In this document: in pieces, positions 1 to 36,984 of the stretch
Layout: every line of letters starts with the position of its first letter
Position numbering within the stretch: position 1 is the first letter of the stretch
Origin: Natrialba swarupiae
GTDB taxonomy: Archaea; Halobacteriota; Halobacteria; Halobacteriales; Natrialbaceae
Reading direction: 5' to 3'
NCBI RefSeq assembly: GCF_008245225.1
Contig: NZ_VTAW01000021.1
Span: 1-64,000 of the forward strand
Length of the DNA: 64,000 bases
Notes under the pieces: model-generated
Told to the model about the DNA's origin: nothing
Database searches by the model: none
The model's input: only the letters and a program-made list of their open reading frames with translations
Position numbers and translations under genes: made by a program

Positions 1-459
1 ACTTCGGGGTAGGTACCAGAGGTGACCCTGTTTCCACAGGAGTCAGTTACGACTCTAGACGAGCTTGGGACACGACCAATTATTTTCTGTATACGGCGTA
101 CAAGCTCGTAACGCGAAGGGGCCCGTTGCAAACCGAGGGTAACAGAACAATCTCAGATCGATATAAACCGGACCCATCGGTCGTCCTTCGGTACATCCCG
201 TGGAGAGGATTCTAAAGCCGTACTGTGGTGTGACCAGTGGTACGTTCAACTCACTAATTAAATCGGGTAGGTAGTAACGAACCCGCTGATAGCCGTGTAC
301 TTGGGGGTGTCAATCTGAGGGGGAGGATCGGTAGCGTTAGAGTGCGATTCGTAGGTAGAGATTACAAACTGGGAGCAGGTCCCTTCTGAACGGCAATCAT
401 CTATCCTGATTTTCAAGATACGACTAACAATACCGACAGATACTGGTTGAGAATCTTGT
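1..459. other. Intergenic region at left edge, no gene seen
   Basis: This stretch has visibly lower GC than the rest of the window and only short frames with no protein-like composition. No tRNA cloverleaf or clear terminator was recognised. It probably holds the promoter of the Tat-exported protein that starts at 460, but I see no convincing TATA box at the expected distance. Confidence 0.5.
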
Positions 460-1680
460 ATGCGAAGCGATGAAAATAACGCTGACGGTAGATTCAAACG
501 GCGATCGTACTTGCAAGGGATTGCTGCGGCTGGCGCGACCAGTGCAGTCGGATTAGGATGGCTCTCGACGACGTCTGCGGAGGCACAGCAAGCCACGCCC
601 CAACAGAACAATCTGCAGAACATCGAAGCGGAGTTCTGCGGAACGTTTTCACCCGGACCGCAGATCCAACAGTGCATCGCGTGCGTCGAAGCACAAGAAG
701 ACTGTGACGAAGTCGGTCCACTGTTCCCGCTGTTCACCGGACTGACGGGCCAGTGTTTCACACCCGACGAGATTCCCGAGGGTGCGGACTACGTCACGCT
801 CAAAGCGGGACTGAACTGCTACGTCGCCCCAGTCGTAGACGATGAGGGAGAGCCATACACGACGTTCTGTCTCCCGACGGGCTCGCCCGACATCAGTAAC
901 GTGACGTTCTACGAGTGCGACCCCGACGATCCCCAGCCCGCGCTCGTGGACTTCAAAGTGACCTGCAAGGAGATCACCGTCACCACGATGAACATCCCCG
1001 ACGGGGAGGAGCTGACAGCAGAGGTGACCTTCCTCGATGCCGATGGCGAGGAGTCGACGGAGACGTTCACGGCGACCGTCCAGAACAACACCGCGACGTT
1101 CGCACTGCCCGGGAATCTCAACCCGACGAACCTCAGAATCACCTTCGATGGTCTCGTACTCGACGATCAGCCGGTCGTCGCCCAGGACGCCCCATGTACG
1201 CCAAAGCCACCGGTCTTCAAAGATCTCGAGGTGACCTGCGACGCGATCACGATCACGACGACGGACGTCCCCGAAGGTGACACCCTCTCCGCGGAGGTGA
1301 CCTTCGTTGGTGACATCGTCGAGACCTACAACGTGCCCGTCGACGCGGACGGAGTCGCCGTGATTCCGCTCCCCGGCGATCTCGATCCCTCGTACTTGCG
1401 GGTCTTCTACGACGACGAGACGCTGTTCGACGGAAATATTCAGGCGTCCGATGCGCCGTGTGCGGAGGTGCCACCGAAACCCCCGAAGCCGCCGAAGAAA
1501 AAGAAGGGCAAGAGATACAGAAAGAAAAAGCGCGCGTGCAAACGCAAGAGACGCGAGTACGAGAAGGTCAAAAAGAAATACGAGAAAGGAAGCGCGAAGA
1601 AATCGGAGGTCCGGAAGAAAAAGCGCGCGTACGAGCGCAAGAAATGCGAGTACGAGAGATACAGGAAACGGTGTAAGTAG
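460..1680 (+). CDS. Tat-exported hypothetical protein with two internal repeats and a Lys/Arg-rich tail
   Basis: I do not recognise the family. Residues 14-20 carry a twin-arginine motif (RRSYLQG), followed by a hydrophobic stretch and a likely cleavage after AEA near residue 42, so it is predicted to be folded in the cytoplasm and exported. A Cys-containing region (about 59-150) precedes two homologous beta-rich repeats (about 158-245 and 252-335) sharing the pattern VTC-x-x-ITxTT-x-xPxG-x-xLxAEVTF. From about residue 336 to the end the protein is extremely basic, with a PPKPPKPPK hinge and two related KKKRA...EYE blocks. That is very unusual in a haloarchaeal proteome, where surface proteins are acidic. 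The tail might bind the acidic S-layer, glycans or nucleic acid; that is inference. Confidence 0.8.
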
Positions 1681-32236: not shown

Positions 32237-33013
32237 TCACAGCCCGTTTCGAATCCGTTCTTCGGCCGCCTCGAGCGCCCGTTCCCGTTCGAACGCCTCG
32301 ACGATTTCCTCGAGTTCCGCCTCGCTGGCGTCCGCCAGATCCCGCGCGTGGTCGGTCATGTTCGGCACCGCGCGGATGATGTTGTCGACGACCGGGACGT
32401 CGGCGACCTGGGGCGACCGTGAGAGGGGGTTGAGGTCGATCACGATCTCGGTCTTGCCCATCTCCTCTAACGCTTCGGCGCGGTCGCCGTCCTCGAGCGG
32501 GACGACCACGACGTCCGCGTCGTAGATGCCGTCGGCGTCGACCTTCGCGCGCTGGTGGTCGAGTCGCGGAATGCGGGCGTCCGCCTCGAGACCCTTTACG
32601 TCCTCGGCGCCGTGCTCGCGCAGGTGGGAAGCGATGGCCTCGATGCGCTCGGGGGTGCGGTTGAAGAGGTTGACCTCGAGGTCGGCCCCCGTGGCGTCGG
32701 CGAGGTCGACCATCTCGCTGGGAACGAGCGCAGCGACGTTGCCGTTGATCGAGAGGACGGGTTGGTCTGCGAGCAACAAGTGGGCGGCGGCGACGCGTTC
32801 GGCCTCGTCGGCGCTCGGAATCGTCTCCTCGCCGAGCAGGTAGTCGAAGGCACTACCCCGGCCTTCGGCGTGCATCCCCTGGAGGTGGGTGATCCCCTTC
32901 TCGACGCCATTCTCGATCCGGTGGCGGGTGAGCAGGTCCTGGTATCTGGGGTGGTCCTCCGGAATCTCCTCTTCGTGTTCGACCTCGGCGGAGACGGTGT
33001 CGTAGTCGCTCAC
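32237..33013 (-). CDS. 4-phosphopantoate--beta-alanine ligase
   Basis: Archaeal phosphopantothenate synthetase (the former DUF137 family), joining 4-phosphopantoate and beta-alanine in CoA synthesis. Distinctive segments are IPEDHPRYQDLLTRHRIENG, GMHAEGRGSAFDYLLGEET and LSINGNVAALVP. 258 residues. Its partner enzyme, pantoate kinase, lies 3.1 kb upstream on the same strand with one large gene in between, so the pathway pair is clustered but interrupted. Confidence 0.93.
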   Translation of the reverse strand: MSDYDTVSAEVEHEEEIPEDHPRYQDLLTRHRIENGVEKGITHLQGMHAEGRGSAFDYLLGEETIPSADEAERVAAAHLLLADQPVLSINGNVAALVPSEMVDLADATGADLEVNLFNRTPERIEAIASHLREHGAEDVKGLEADARIPRLDHQRAKVDADGIYDADVVVVPLEDGDRAEALEEMGKTEIVIDLNPLSRSPQVADVPVVDNIIRAVPNMTDHARDLADASEAELEEIVEAFERERALEAAEERIRNGL

Positions 33014-33058
33014 GAGAGACGACTGGCGGGCGGCGATAAAAAGCAGACCGATCCGTTC

Positions 33059-33146
33059 TGATACGGTTTACTGTAATCGTTATCGCCACATCCGAAGACC
33101 GGTACCGGGTGCGGCGGCAAACGGTTACAGCAGTCCGTCCGAATCA
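33059..33146. repeat. TGATACGG palindromic element between the CoA gene and the DUF1508 gene
   Basis: The left end starts TGATACGGTTTACTGTAATC; the right end in reverse complement starts TGATTCGGACGGACTGCTGT. The arms are less regular and the centre longer than in the 42 kb copy. The right-end TGA on the minus strand is the stop codon of the 967-residue repeat protein; the left end lies 45 bases before the start of the ligase gene. Confidence 0.65.
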
Positions 33147-36047
33147 GTCGGTAAACGTGATCCAGCCGTCCGGTGCCTGCGCTTTCACGCTGTTCATCGC
33201 CTCGCGGGCGTCGGTCCGGTTCTCGTAGACCTGGCTGCTCTCGGCCATCGTCGTCCCGTGTTCGTCGATCAGATGCCAGAGCCAGCCGTCGTCGTCCTCG
33301 GCCGCGTGCAGCTCGAAGGAGACGCTGTCGATCTCGAGGATACTCGCGGCCTCGATCAGGCCGCGAACGTCGCCGACCGCTTCGCGGGCCGCCTCGGGCG
33401 TCGCGTACGTCTCGGAGCCACTCGCAACCGATCGGCCGTTCTCGTCGATGAGCCGCCAGTGCCAGCGGTCGTCCTCGCCGGCGACGAGTTCGAACGAGGC
33501 GACGTCGAAGTCGACCCGTCCGGCCCGCGGGGCCAGCTGTCGGACCGTCTCGACCTGCGATGTCAGGTCGGCCTTACTTGCGACGGGTTCGGCGGCCCGG
33601 CCGATCGCCTCGCGCTCGCGGTCGACGAGCGTCCACGTCCAGTCGTCGGCGCTCTCGAGTCTGATCACCGCGTCCTCGATCGTGAACACCGGCGCGTCCT
33701 CGGCGTGGTCCGTGATCGTCGTGACCGCCTCCCGCGTGGCCTCGCGGTCTGCGTACGAGTCACTCGAGTCGGCGATCGTCTCGCGGTCGCGATCGAGCAG
33801 TCGGAACCGCCACTCGTCGGTGCCGTACAGCTGGGCGGTGACCTCGCCGATCATGTACTGCTTCGCCGATGCGGCGGCCTCGCGGACGTCGCCCAACTGG
33901 TCGGCGAGGTCGTCGCGAGTCGGATACGCCTCGGCGTCGACGGCGATGATCTCGCCGTCGGGCAGGACGAATCGCCAGTGCCAATCCTCGTCGACGTACG
34001 GCTGGAAGATCGGCGCGTCCATCGTCCTGACCGCCGAGTCGAGATGCTCGAGTAGCCGATCCATCGCGGCACGGGCCGCCTCGCGGGTCGGGTGGGTCGC
34101 CGGATCCTCAGCGACGAGCTTTCCGGCCTCGTCGATAAGTCGCCACCCCCACTCGTCGTTGTCGTCGACGAACAGTTCGAAGGCGGCGGTCTCGATCTCG
34201 AGCAGTTCGGCCTCCGGCGCCTGCTCTTTGAGCGTCATCATCGCCTGTGAGGCCTCGGTTCGGGTGGTGTGTTCGGTGCCGCTGTCGGCGAGAACCGTCC
34301 CGTCCTCGTCGATGAGCCGCCAGCGCCACTCGCCGGAGTCGGCTTCGTACACCTGAAACGCCGCGTTCTCGAACTCGATGAGATCGGCCTCGCTCGCCTG
34401 CTGGCGGACGCGCTCGATCGCCGTCGCGGCCGTCTCGGGATCCGTGTGCGGTTCGTTGCTCGCGGCGACGACCTCCCGATCGTCGGTGACGAGCCGCCAG
34501 TTCCACTCCGGTTTCTCCTCGTCGTCGCCCTCCTCGACGACCACGCCGCCGTCCGCGGTCGCTTCCTTCCCGTCCGTCGTCGCCGGGAGATCGTCGGTCT
34601 CGTCGTAGGTCAACTCCTGACCGCCGTCGGCAGGATAGACCTCGTACTCCGCGTCCTCGATCTGGACGACATCCGCAACGTATGCCCCGTCGGTGAACTG
34701 TTCGGTTCGCCGCTTCGCCTCGGTGTACTCCTCGAGTGCATCGGGGTTCCGGGCGACGACGCGTTCGGTCTCGTCGACGAGCCTGAACTGCCACTGTTCG
34801 CCCGTCTGGTACAGTTCGTGTTTCGGCTCGCCCGCGACGGTGATCGAGGCCGAACCAAACTCCGGCAGAAGCGCCTCGACGGCCGCCTCCGCGTCGCGTC
34901 GGGCGTCGAACTCCTTGGAGGCGGTTGCGAGTACGTCGTCCTCGCTGTCGACGAGCCGCCAACTCCACGTGTCGTTTCGTTCGTAGAGTTCGGCTCCGAC
35001 GCCGTCGACGTCGAGAACGCGGGCGCGTTCGAACCGCTGTGCGAACGTCCGGGCGGCGTCCTCGGCGCGTTCCTGGCTTCGGTGGCCCGTCTCACCCGTC
35101 GCGAGCGGCGTCCGCTCGTCGTCGATGAGCCGCCAGTACCACCGGTCACGTTCCTCGACGTAGGTGAACGCCGCACCCTCGATTTCGATGACGTCCGCGT
35201 CTGGTCCGCGATCTTTGAGGAAGCTCACCGACTCCTCGGCGTCGTCGCGCTGATCGAACTCGCGTGAACAGGTGCCGACGACGCTCCCGTCCTCGCGGGC
35301 GAGCGTCCACTGCCAGGTGCCGTCGCGATCCTCGTAGAGGCGAAACGCCGAGGTCGTAAGCTCCATCAGCCCCGCGGAGCTGATCTGGGACTTGACGCGT
35401 TCGATCCCCTCGGTTGCCTCCGGGCGGGTGACGGCGCTCTCGACGCTCCCCGCGAGCGCCTCGAGGTGGAGGACGTGCCACCTCCAGTCGCCCTCCTCGT
35501 CTCGGAAGACGGCGAACTGGGCACCCTCGAGGGTGTCACCCGTCAGAATCGGCGGATCTTCGGTCTGTCCTTCCTCCTCGACGAACATCCCCCGCTGACC
35601 GGTGACGACGGGGACGAGAAGGGCAACGCCGCCGAGCGTTCCGACGCCGATGGACGTGATCACGATCCCTTCGACGGTCAGATCCATGCCGTGTCCGCGC
35701 CAGTGATACGGATACGCCGCCGCGGAGAACACGACCCCGGCGAGAGCGATTACCAGGCCGACCACGCTCGCCTGGATGGCTCGCTTGCGGACCGGTAACA
35801 TGAGTACGAGCCCGAACAACCCGATGGAGCCACCGGTTCCGGCGATAACTGTCGATATTCTGATTAGGTAGTACGAACCGGTGTCGCCTGCGTAACTGAC
35901 GACGAAGACGAGGACGCCTGCGGCGGCAACCAAGTAGCCGAGAATGAACAGCCAGTAGCCGTAGACGTCCGAACTCGAGTCCGGTTCGCCGACGTAGTGT
36001 TCGTAGAGTCGAAACAGGTTCTGGTGTATTTTCAGTCGAGATGTCAT
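33144..36047 (-). CDS. Membrane protein with 13 tandem DUF1508 (YegP-like) repeats
   Basis: 967 residues. The N-terminal 155 contain four hydrophobic segments (about 29-51, 60-83, 90-110, 122-148). From about 175 to the end run 13 repeats of about 55-60 residues, each with a core like W-x-W-x-L-x-D-x-x-x-x-x-x-A, then a Tyr/His-rich turn, a helix and a closing hydrophobic strand. This is the DUF1508/YegP pattern, normally present as one or two copies. Repeat 6 carries an acidic insert of about 40 residues. The C-terminal repeats should be on one face of the membrane; side and partners are unknown. It sits between the two archaeal CoA genes on the same strand. The stop codon lies in a palindromic element. 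Confidence 0.88.
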   Translation of the reverse strand: MTSRLKIHQNLFRLYEHYVGEPDSSSDVYGYWLFILGYLVAAAGVLVFVVSYAGDTGSYYLIRISTVIAGTGGSIGLFGLVLMLPVRKRAIQASVVGLVIALAGVVFSAAAYPYHWRGHGMDLTVEGIVITSIGVGTLGGVALLVPVVTGQRGMFVEEEGQTEDPPILTGDTLEGAQFAVFRDEEGDWRWHVLHLEALAGSVESAVTRPEATEGIERVKSQISSAGLMELTTSAFRLYEDRDGTWQWTLAREDGSVVGTCSREFDQRDDAEESVSFLKDRGPDADVIEIEGAAFTYVEERDRWYWRLIDDERTPLATGETGHRSQERAEDAARTFAQRFERARVLDVDGVGAELYERNDTWSWRLVDSEDDVLATASKEFDARRDAEAAVEALLPEFGSASITVAGEPKHELYQTGEQWQFRLVDETERVVARNPDALEEYTEAKRRTEQFTDGAYVADVVQIEDAEYEVYPADGGQELTYDETDDLPATTDGKEATADGGVVVEEGDDEEKPEWNWRLVTDDREVVAASNEPHTDPETAATAIERVRQQASEADLIEFENAAFQVYEADSGEWRWRLIDEDGTVLADSGTEHTTRTEASQAMMTLKEQAPEAELLEIETAAFELFVDDNDEWGWRLIDEAGKLVAEDPATHPTREAARAAMDRLLEHLDSAVRTMDAPIFQPYVDEDWHWRFVLPDGEIIAVDAEAYPTRDDLADQLGDVREAAASAKQYMIGEVTAQLYGTDEWRFRLLDRDRETIADSSDSYADREATREAVTTITDHAEDAPVFTIEDAVIRLESADDWTWTLVDREREAIGRAAEPVASKADLTSQVETVRQLAPRAGRVDFDVASFELVAGEDDRWHWRLIDENGRSVASGSETYATPEAAREAVGDVRGLIEAASILEIDSVSFELHAAEDDDGWLWHLIDEHGTTMAESSQVYENRTDAREAMNSVKAQAPDGWITFTD

Positions 36048-36125
36048 CGCAAACTTAAGGCATAACTAGAACGTTAGTTAATAAGTTTATGGCCACGTGT
36101 TGGCCGAGAATCACCTCACGAATCG
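36048..36125. promoter_or_regulatory. Promoter region of the DUF1508-repeat gene with small hairpin
   Basis: An AT-rich segment (36054-36090) holds TATA-like sequence TTATTAA on the minus strand. GGCCA/TGGCC at 36091-36105 forms a 5-base stem around CGTGT. This follows the pantoate kinase stop closely and could be a weak terminator or an operator. Confidence 0.4.
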
Positions 36126-36962
36126 TCACTTCAACATCGCACCGGCCGGGTGAGTCGCACAGACGTTCGGATCGTATCCTGCGTCGGAGAGCCCCGTTCC
36201 GAGCGCGAAGACCGTGTTCCCCAGCATCGCCATCGACGCCTGTCCGTTCGCGTCGGTGACGTCGCCGATCGTTCGTGCGACCTGTTCGGTCAGTAACTCG
36301 GTTTCGCGAGCGAACGCCCGCGAGGCGTACATAAACGAGAGGAGCGTCGGCTCCTCGACCAGCTTCGATAGTGCCTCCGTCCCGACCTGCGTGAGCCGTT
36401 CGGTGTCGTCAGCGAGCACCTCCGGCGTCGAGAGTTCGCCGAACGAGACGTACTCGACGCGCGCTCGAGCGGGTATTGCGTCGAGCTTGTTCACCTGCGG
36501 GCTCCCCGGCTCGAGACGGATCGGCACGCCGCCGCGGGCCTGTGCGACGACGTCACCTAGTCCAGTGCCGGCCCGCACCTCTGCGCCGTGGGCGACCGTC
36601 ACCAGTTCGTTGAACGAGAGCTTGCAGGTAAACACTCGATTCGCCGCGAGGGCCGTCCCCAGTGCCGTCGCGCCCGAGACACCGAACCCGGCCCCGAGCG
36701 GGAGTTCGGAGCGCGCCTCGACGCGGGCAGAAACCCCAATCGTCTCGAGAACGGTCGACACCGGTTCGATCTCGGTCTCCTCACCGTCGAGGACGATGGT
36801 CGATGACGCCTCTTCCGGAACGCGCTCGACCGTCACCTCGATGCCGTCGGTGAGCGTCACCCCGGCTCCTCGAGAGCCAGCTTTCGTCGGATCCTCGTCC
36901 GGATGTGCGCTGAAAAAACCCGTGATGTGCCCGGGAACGAACGCCGTCGCCTCCTCACCCAT
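36126..36962 (-). CDS. Pantoate kinase (GHMP kinase family)
   Basis: ATP-dependent phosphorylation of pantoate, the first of the two archaeal-specific steps to 4'-phosphopantothenate. The N-terminus AFVPGHITGFFSAHPDEDP and the GHMP phosphate loop PLGAGFGVSGA (88-98) are diagnostic. The frame extends to 37097, but a TATATAAT box at 36985-36992 lies about 27 bases before ATG 36962, indicating a leaderless start there and 278 residues. The second enzyme is at 32237-33013. Confidence 0.92.
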   Translation of the reverse strand: MGEEATAFVPGHITGFFSAHPDEDPTKAGSRGAGVTLTDGIEVTVERVPEEASSTIVLDGEETEIEPVSTVLETIGVSARVEARSELPLGAGFGVSGATALGTALAANRVFTCKLSFNELVTVAHGAEVRAGTGLGDVVAQARGGVPIRLEPGSPQVNKLDAIPARARVEYVSFGELSTPEVLADDTERLTQVGTEALSKLVEEPTLLSFMYASRAFARETELLTEQVARTIGDVTDANGQASMAMLGNTVFALGTGLSDAGYDPNVCATHPAGAMLK

Positions 36963-36984
36963 TGGCGTTCCTTGCGACTCGCCC

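Follow-up and report, generated by a model that had tools for sequence, protein, structure and literature searches.

A haloarchaeal membrane protein with a fixed count of 13 DUF1508 modules, predicted to fold back into a paired rod

Haloarchaea encode a membrane protein in which an array of DUF1508/YegP modules is held at 13 copies, and AlphaFold models from two different lineages can be read as an array folded back on itself, with module i paired to module 14-i. The frozen count and this reading of the models are what is new here. Our leading candidate for the function is a membrane-anchored cytoplasmic scaffold rod with module 7 at its tip, a tentative assignment to which we give slightly less than an even chance. 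The window is the whole stretch of Natrialba swarupiae DNA that was analyzed, 64,000 nucleotides in length. The array gene is a single open frame in it with an ATG start, and the encoded protein begins with a DUF7139 membrane domain of about 150 residues, followed by 13 modules of about 58 residues each. Its features, in window coordinates, are as follows.

33144..36047 (-), array gene, DUF7139 plus 13 DUF1508 modules, 967 aa
35589..36020 (-), DUF7139 domain, aa 10-153, four predicted membrane helices
35364..35531 (-), module 1, aa 173-228, predicted partner module 13
35190..35363 (-), module 2, aa 229-286, predicted partner module 12
35016..35189 (-), module 3, aa 287-344, putative pairing with module 11, from extending the register
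34842..35015 (-), module 4, aa 345-402, predicted partner module 10
34674..34841 (-), module 5, aa 403-458, predicted partner module 9
34377..34673 (-), module 6, aa 459-557, predicted partner module 8, contains the acidic insert
34512..34631 (-), acidic insert of module 6, about aa 473-512, predicted disordered
34200..34376 (-), module 7, aa 558-616, middle of the array, highest conservation, nearest to HVO_2922, predicted tip without a partner
34026..34199 (-), module 8, aa 617-674
33861..34025 (-), module 9, aa 675-729
33690..33860 (-), module 10, aa 730-786
33513..33689 (-), module 11, aa 787-845
33333..33512 (-), module 12, aa 846-905
33147..33332 (-), module 13, aa 906-967

This layout agrees with the first-pass annotation, which had described 13 DUF1508 copies behind four membrane segments. 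The modules were counted in two ways, by a W-x-W motif and by an HMM built from the 13-module proteins of the array family itself. Pfam DUF1508 (PF07411) scores 266 bits on the array protein against a cut-off of 22, with nine stretches passing individually, and Pfam DUF7139 (PF23600) scores 123 bits against a cut-off of 30 over aa 10-153. Hydropathy gives four hydrophobic segments (33-51, 64-82, 93-111, and 127-145), and four helices also appear in the predicted model. Lys and Arg residues number three before helix 1, zero between helices 1 and 2, three between helices 2 and 3, one between helices 3 and 4, and one after helix 4. This charge pattern suggests that both ends of DUF7139, and with them the array, face the cytoplasm. 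Repeat 6 does hold the acidic stretch of about 40 residues that had been noted there, but this insert is not conserved, being missing or short in many orthologues, and it is disordered by prediction (pLDDT below 50 at residues 475-511).

Tandem repeats usually gain and lose copies. Variation in repeat number among species, which had been put forward as a check on the array, was surveyed, and the count hardly varies: of 133 distinct homologues, 127 have exactly 13 modules, and this holds across haloarchaeal families and for sequences as little as about 40% identical. The 119 relatives supplied 62 main-copy loci and 14 loci of the second paralogue, and a scan of species genomes supplied 56 named loci. 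A further 40 main-copy loci came from 392 genomes of the order, among which 103 gave a match at E 1e-80 or better. The six exceptions to 13 are genes split over two frames (L100/L174 and L122), frames that reach a contig end (L128 and L191), a short frame (L195), and a gene whose first module falls below threshold (L133/L186, the same gene). In L238, an extra match of 12 residues was removed by the length filter of the module count. The two reading frames of L100/L174, from Natrinema thermotolerans DSM 11552, reflect either a broken gene or a sequencing error.

The modules also keep their identity along the chain. Within the window's family, 38 proteins were compared and the module of the same index came out as best match every time (494 of 494), as it did for 13 more proteins (169 of 169). 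The same holds for 81 of 104 and 76 of 104 modules in distant lineages and for 139 of 156 in second paralogues. This orthology, index by index, together with the constant count, suggests that the array probably had its 13 modules before these lineages diverged and that the copies have not been reshuffled since.

The arrangement of the modules was examined in two predicted structures. Model 1, an AlphaFold2 prediction from the window protein and 45 relatives (structure alignment A2; of the 56 named loci, L144, L153, L163, L168, L172, L174, L186, L191, L193, L194, and L195 were omitted), has a mean pLDDT of 85 and a pTM of 0.56, and every module adopts a beta-beta-beta-alpha arrangement. The first-pass annotation had allowed for repeats that do not fold as DUF1508; as modeled, they match YegP (2k8e) and SO3888 (2k49) at Z 14.7, with 115 and 111 residues aligned over model ranges 229..910 and 232..932, respectively. 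Because only about 115 aligned residues are spread over 229..910, the matched unit seems to be modules 2 and 12 rather than two neighbors. Weaker rows against solved structures cover 348..789 (modules 4 and 10) and 406..734 (modules 5 and 9). Model 2 was built from 12 sequences outside the window's family, headed by Halosimplex carlsbadense, and has a pLDDT of 78 and a pTM of 0.50. It matches two-module YegP structures at Z 14.1-14.3, and the alignment with 2k8e places 114 residues over 471..653, which passes over module 7 and corresponds to modules 6 and 8. Its other rows cover 417..710, 359..763, and 187..939 (modules 5 and 9, 4 and 10, and 1 and 13). Both models, from different lineages, thus read as a register of i + j = 14, where the pairing is deduced from the first and last aligned residues, as a reading of ranges rather than of contacts, and pTM is moderate in both. 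The long scaffold or ligand-binding rod proposed in the first-pass annotation fares well as far as a rod is likely, but the favored rod is folded back and would lie in the cytoplasm. Weak rows to the HIV RT connection domain, TolB, and Hsp70 in the PDB were judged to be common beta-beta-beta-alpha arrangements, and a viral fold library returned short DUF1508 phage proteins along with unconvincing long rows.

The fold-back was also examined in sequence alignments. Mean conservation per module is symmetric about the center for pairs summing to 14 (p 0.024) and slightly more so for pairs summing to 15 (p 0.014), eleven pairings having been tried; other sums within 10-18 and the adjacent pairings (p 0.22 and 0.34) show no such symmetry. 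In an MI-APC covariation analysis of 126 sequences, corrected for module effects, sum-14 pairs lie at +1.3 s.d. (label-permutation p 0.0004), with sum 15 second. With second paralogues removed, the remaining 112 main copies give label-permutation p values for sum 14 of 0.016 to 0.093, depending on settings, and three random halves of the main copies give 0.057 to 0.125. Mean-field DCA finds no significant register (sum 14 p 0.34, 0.10, and 0.055). Ten loci (L095, L100, L122, L128, L163, L174, L191, L195, L186, and L133) were excluded from the covariation sets beforehand, and Z values from a frame-permuted null, which is biased for sums with three pairs, were discarded. Taken together, covariation gives moderate, method-dependent support to the fold-back. 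A rod in which each module touches module 14-i and, across the stack, module 15-i would make both sums visible.

These data bear on a simpler arrangement, in which the modules are independent beads on a string or pair with their neighbors (1-2, 3-4, and so on) as in YegP, forming a long flexible ligand-binding rod that does not fold back. The two modules of YegP itself are adjacent (2k8e and 2k49), some neighbor covariation is seen by some methods, and independent beads would suit the five canonical modules of a related class described below. However, both models match YegP with non-adjacent modules, conservation lacks symmetry for adjacent pairings, and a free string leaves the frozen count of 13 unexplained, so that we regard this arrangement as quite unlikely.

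In the preferred reading, the DUF7139 helices would anchor the protein and the array would extend into the cytoplasm, as the charge pattern suggests. The 13 modules would fold back so that each module i joins module 14-i, giving six YegP-type two-module units stacked as a rod. The pair of modules 1 and 13 would lie next to the membrane, and module 7, without a partner, would form the opposite tip. Each module would then need a particular partner, and the gain or loss of a single module would shift the entire register, which would explain why the count is frozen. Nested pairing offers a simple, testable reason for the number 13 and makes DUF1508 a candidate pairing device.

Module 7, the predicted tip, stands apart from the other modules. 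It has the highest conservation (2.48 nats, the runner-up module having 2.17), extending over most of its length, as in WRWRLIDEDG..LADSG. In 123 of 127 proteins, it is the module that best matches HVO_2922 (PDB 6q2z), and it is module 7 that HVO_2922 matches best in both sequence and structure, with 34% identity by Foldseek. Its helix is short, at 12 residues, in both models, with modest confidence in model 2. No other DUF1508 protein was detected in the window's genome at E 0.001. The array protein scores 290 bits against NF041908, the equivalog model of the HVO_2922 family, with a cut-off of 90, but this score is summed over repeats, and the family is defined by a single small module. Because the array protein has 967 aa, 13 modules, and a membrane domain, it is not filed as an HVO_2922 orthologue. 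The structure of HVO_2922 was reportedly described by Kubatova in 2020; the text of PMC7217052 does not mention HVO_2922.

HVO_2922 was deposited with two chains. Given this deposit and the HVO_2922-like sequence that module 7 keeps, the likeliest use of the tip would be self-pairing, in which module 7 joins module 7 of a second chain and links two anchored rods; we consider this candidate possible but rather doubtful. The tip could instead bind another protein, a nucleic acid, or a small ligand, the fold-back rod being otherwise correct. Conservation along most of module 7 would fit such a binding surface, as would the appearance of HVO_2922 among perchlorate-induced genes alongside DNA-repair genes in PMC12175516. 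Against it, the closest solved relative was deposited as two chains, and no ligand was found in this analysis; binding of something other than its own copy is, in our estimate, unlikely. Taken in full, with six nested heterologous YegP-type units and a canonical tip module that joins two anchored rods end to end, the array protein would be a new archaeal membrane scaffold, a reading that we hold to be less probable than its alternatives combined yet worth stating. If it is true, DUF1508 would be a pairing module, and nested pairing would be the reason that the count never changes.

The array gene lies between two genes of CoA synthesis, and the conserved elements around it are listed below.

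32237..33013 (-), 4-phosphopantoate-beta-alanine ligase (PPS, phosphopantothenate synthetase), downstream neighbor
36126..36983 (-), pantoate kinase (PoK), upstream neighbor
36078..36085 (-), TATA-like box of the array gene, putative own promoter, -38 to -31 from the ATG, preceded by a conserved GGCC element (58 upstream regions)
36051..36067 (-), conserved element between the TATA box and the start codon, possible operator
33034..33043 (-), conserved TATA-like box of the PPS gene, at -30, consistent with a leaderless transcript (52 upstream regions)

The first-pass annotation had seen that the gene separates the ligase from the kinase on one strand, and had asked whether this association is functional or accidental. 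A survey of haloarchaeal neighborhoods, which it had proposed, bears out the linkage in part. PoK upstream and PPS downstream, all on one strand, are found at 78 of 102 main-copy loci across several families; the remaining loci have only PPS (8), only PoK (4), or neither gene within about 5 kb (12, with contig ends not separated). Linkage to both genes is therefore not common to all carriers, and the array is located elsewhere in Halosimplex, Halomarina, Haloferax marinum, and others. Among six such loci examined, the surroundings differ and no common partner was found. Nearly all of the 119 genomes have PPS (118) and PoK (116), whether or not they carry the array, and in at least 33 of 57 genomes without a main copy (counted by eye) the two genes lie 40-175 bp apart. 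With PoK and PPS near-universal and close together in its absence, the array gene looks like an old insertion between two adjacent genes or, in places, a loss from between them. In two genomes (G071 and G096), the stretch from PoK to PPS was searched for traces of an array that had been lost, and nothing turned up beyond one match of 21 residues at E 0.91. In one locus (L090, genome G018), the PPS homologue has one internal TGA.

The upstream regions hold separate promoter-like elements. A GGCC element and a TATA-like box are conserved at -40 to -31 in the 58 array upstream regions compared, and the PPS box at -30 is also present in genomes without the array. When the array promoter motif was searched in seven genomes with up to three mismatches, it matched the array gene alone, in three of the seven, the pattern being too strict for the window's own copy. 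As nothing besides the array gene was matched, a shared regulon was dropped.

The linkage at 78 loci could mean that the array belongs to the CoA pathway, as a scaffold or regulator of PoK and PPS at the membrane or as a sensor of a CoA intermediate. However, array and PPS each have their own conserved putative promoter, PoK and PPS sit side by side in many genomes that lack a main copy, 12 loci have neither gene nearby, and a second 13-module paralogue occurs in other surroundings. A CoA function was set aside on this synteny, on the separate promoter-like elements, and on the absence pattern, and we regard it as very improbable. The linkage is real and old, but it looks positional rather than functional, since the putative promoters are separate, PoK and PPS occur without the array, and the array lies elsewhere in several lineages. 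The gene would sit between the CoA genes by descent, with its own promoter, and would be neither a CoA enzyme nor a dependent part of the CoA pathway. The array gene is thereby freed from a misleading CoA label. Farther along the window, a VapC-like PIN-domain gene (PF01850; 40781-41152 (-)) adjoins a VapB antitoxin gene (PF02697; 41153-41419 (-)).

Several haloarchaeal proteins share parts of this architecture. The second 13-module paralogue (L123-L136, L172, L186, L193, and L194) has one or two hydrophobic segments and lacks DUF7139 in the one protein checked. Its context is not constant: several loci have an NTP-transferase gene nearby, and others an Orc1/Cdc6-like gene. A further class (L205-L219, L222, and L223) shares the membrane domain and the modules with the array and has five modules in 17 of the 18 proteins with hits, one of which was checked with Pfam. 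This class is at odds with the earlier remark that DUF1508 usually occurs singly or in pairs, and five is a second fixed count in haloarchaea. All five of its modules are canonical and the central one is not special, so that a predicted special center, as in the array, failed there. DUF7139 proteins with a DUF7140 tail share the membrane domain, and the one scanned is without DUF1508. Most of the haloarchaea searched also have short DUF7139 paralogues whose C-terminal tail is rich in cysteine (DUF7140 in L019). HVO_2922 (6q2z; NF041908, PF07411) shares the module fold but consists of one 60-residue module, whereas the array has 13 diverged modules on a membrane domain.

Within the partial texts covered, the literature on DUF1508, DUF7139, and YegP-like domains holds no description of or experiment on the array protein or module pairing, and the search returned nothing on DUF7139. 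The strongest Foldseek match of model 1 is chain AD of 7b5h (E 3.8e-6), which is also matched by profile at residues 1075-1157 (E 4e-4). According to PMC8894136, this chain is All3315, or Cis12, of the Anabaena thylakoid-anchored contractile injection system, and its extension, residues 610-1100, forms part of the membrane connection. Model 2 matches Cis12 at Z 8.2 over 99 residues, with chain range 617..1161 and model range 474..643 (modules 6 and 8), both ranges being known by their outermost aligned residues only. Two distant DUF1508-like stretches of the solved Cis12 structure thus also seem to make one unit, in a fold-back similar to that predicted for the array. Cis12 is a baseplate protein without DUF7139, its sequence similarity to the array is weak, and no functional relation is claimed. 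Alg12/Algo12 (PDB 9wsz and 7aeb), baseplate proteins of other contractile injection systems, weakly resemble DUF1508 in a stretch around residue 600 (E 0.28). PMC2954219 describes the YegP-like fold as two beta-beta-beta-alpha-beta domains that form an internal repeat. Both array models match the two-module unit of the UPF0339 proteins YegP of E. coli (2k8e) and SO3888 (2k49), which have two modules each. Their modules are adjacent in the chain, whereas the predicted partners in the array lie up to about 700 residues apart.
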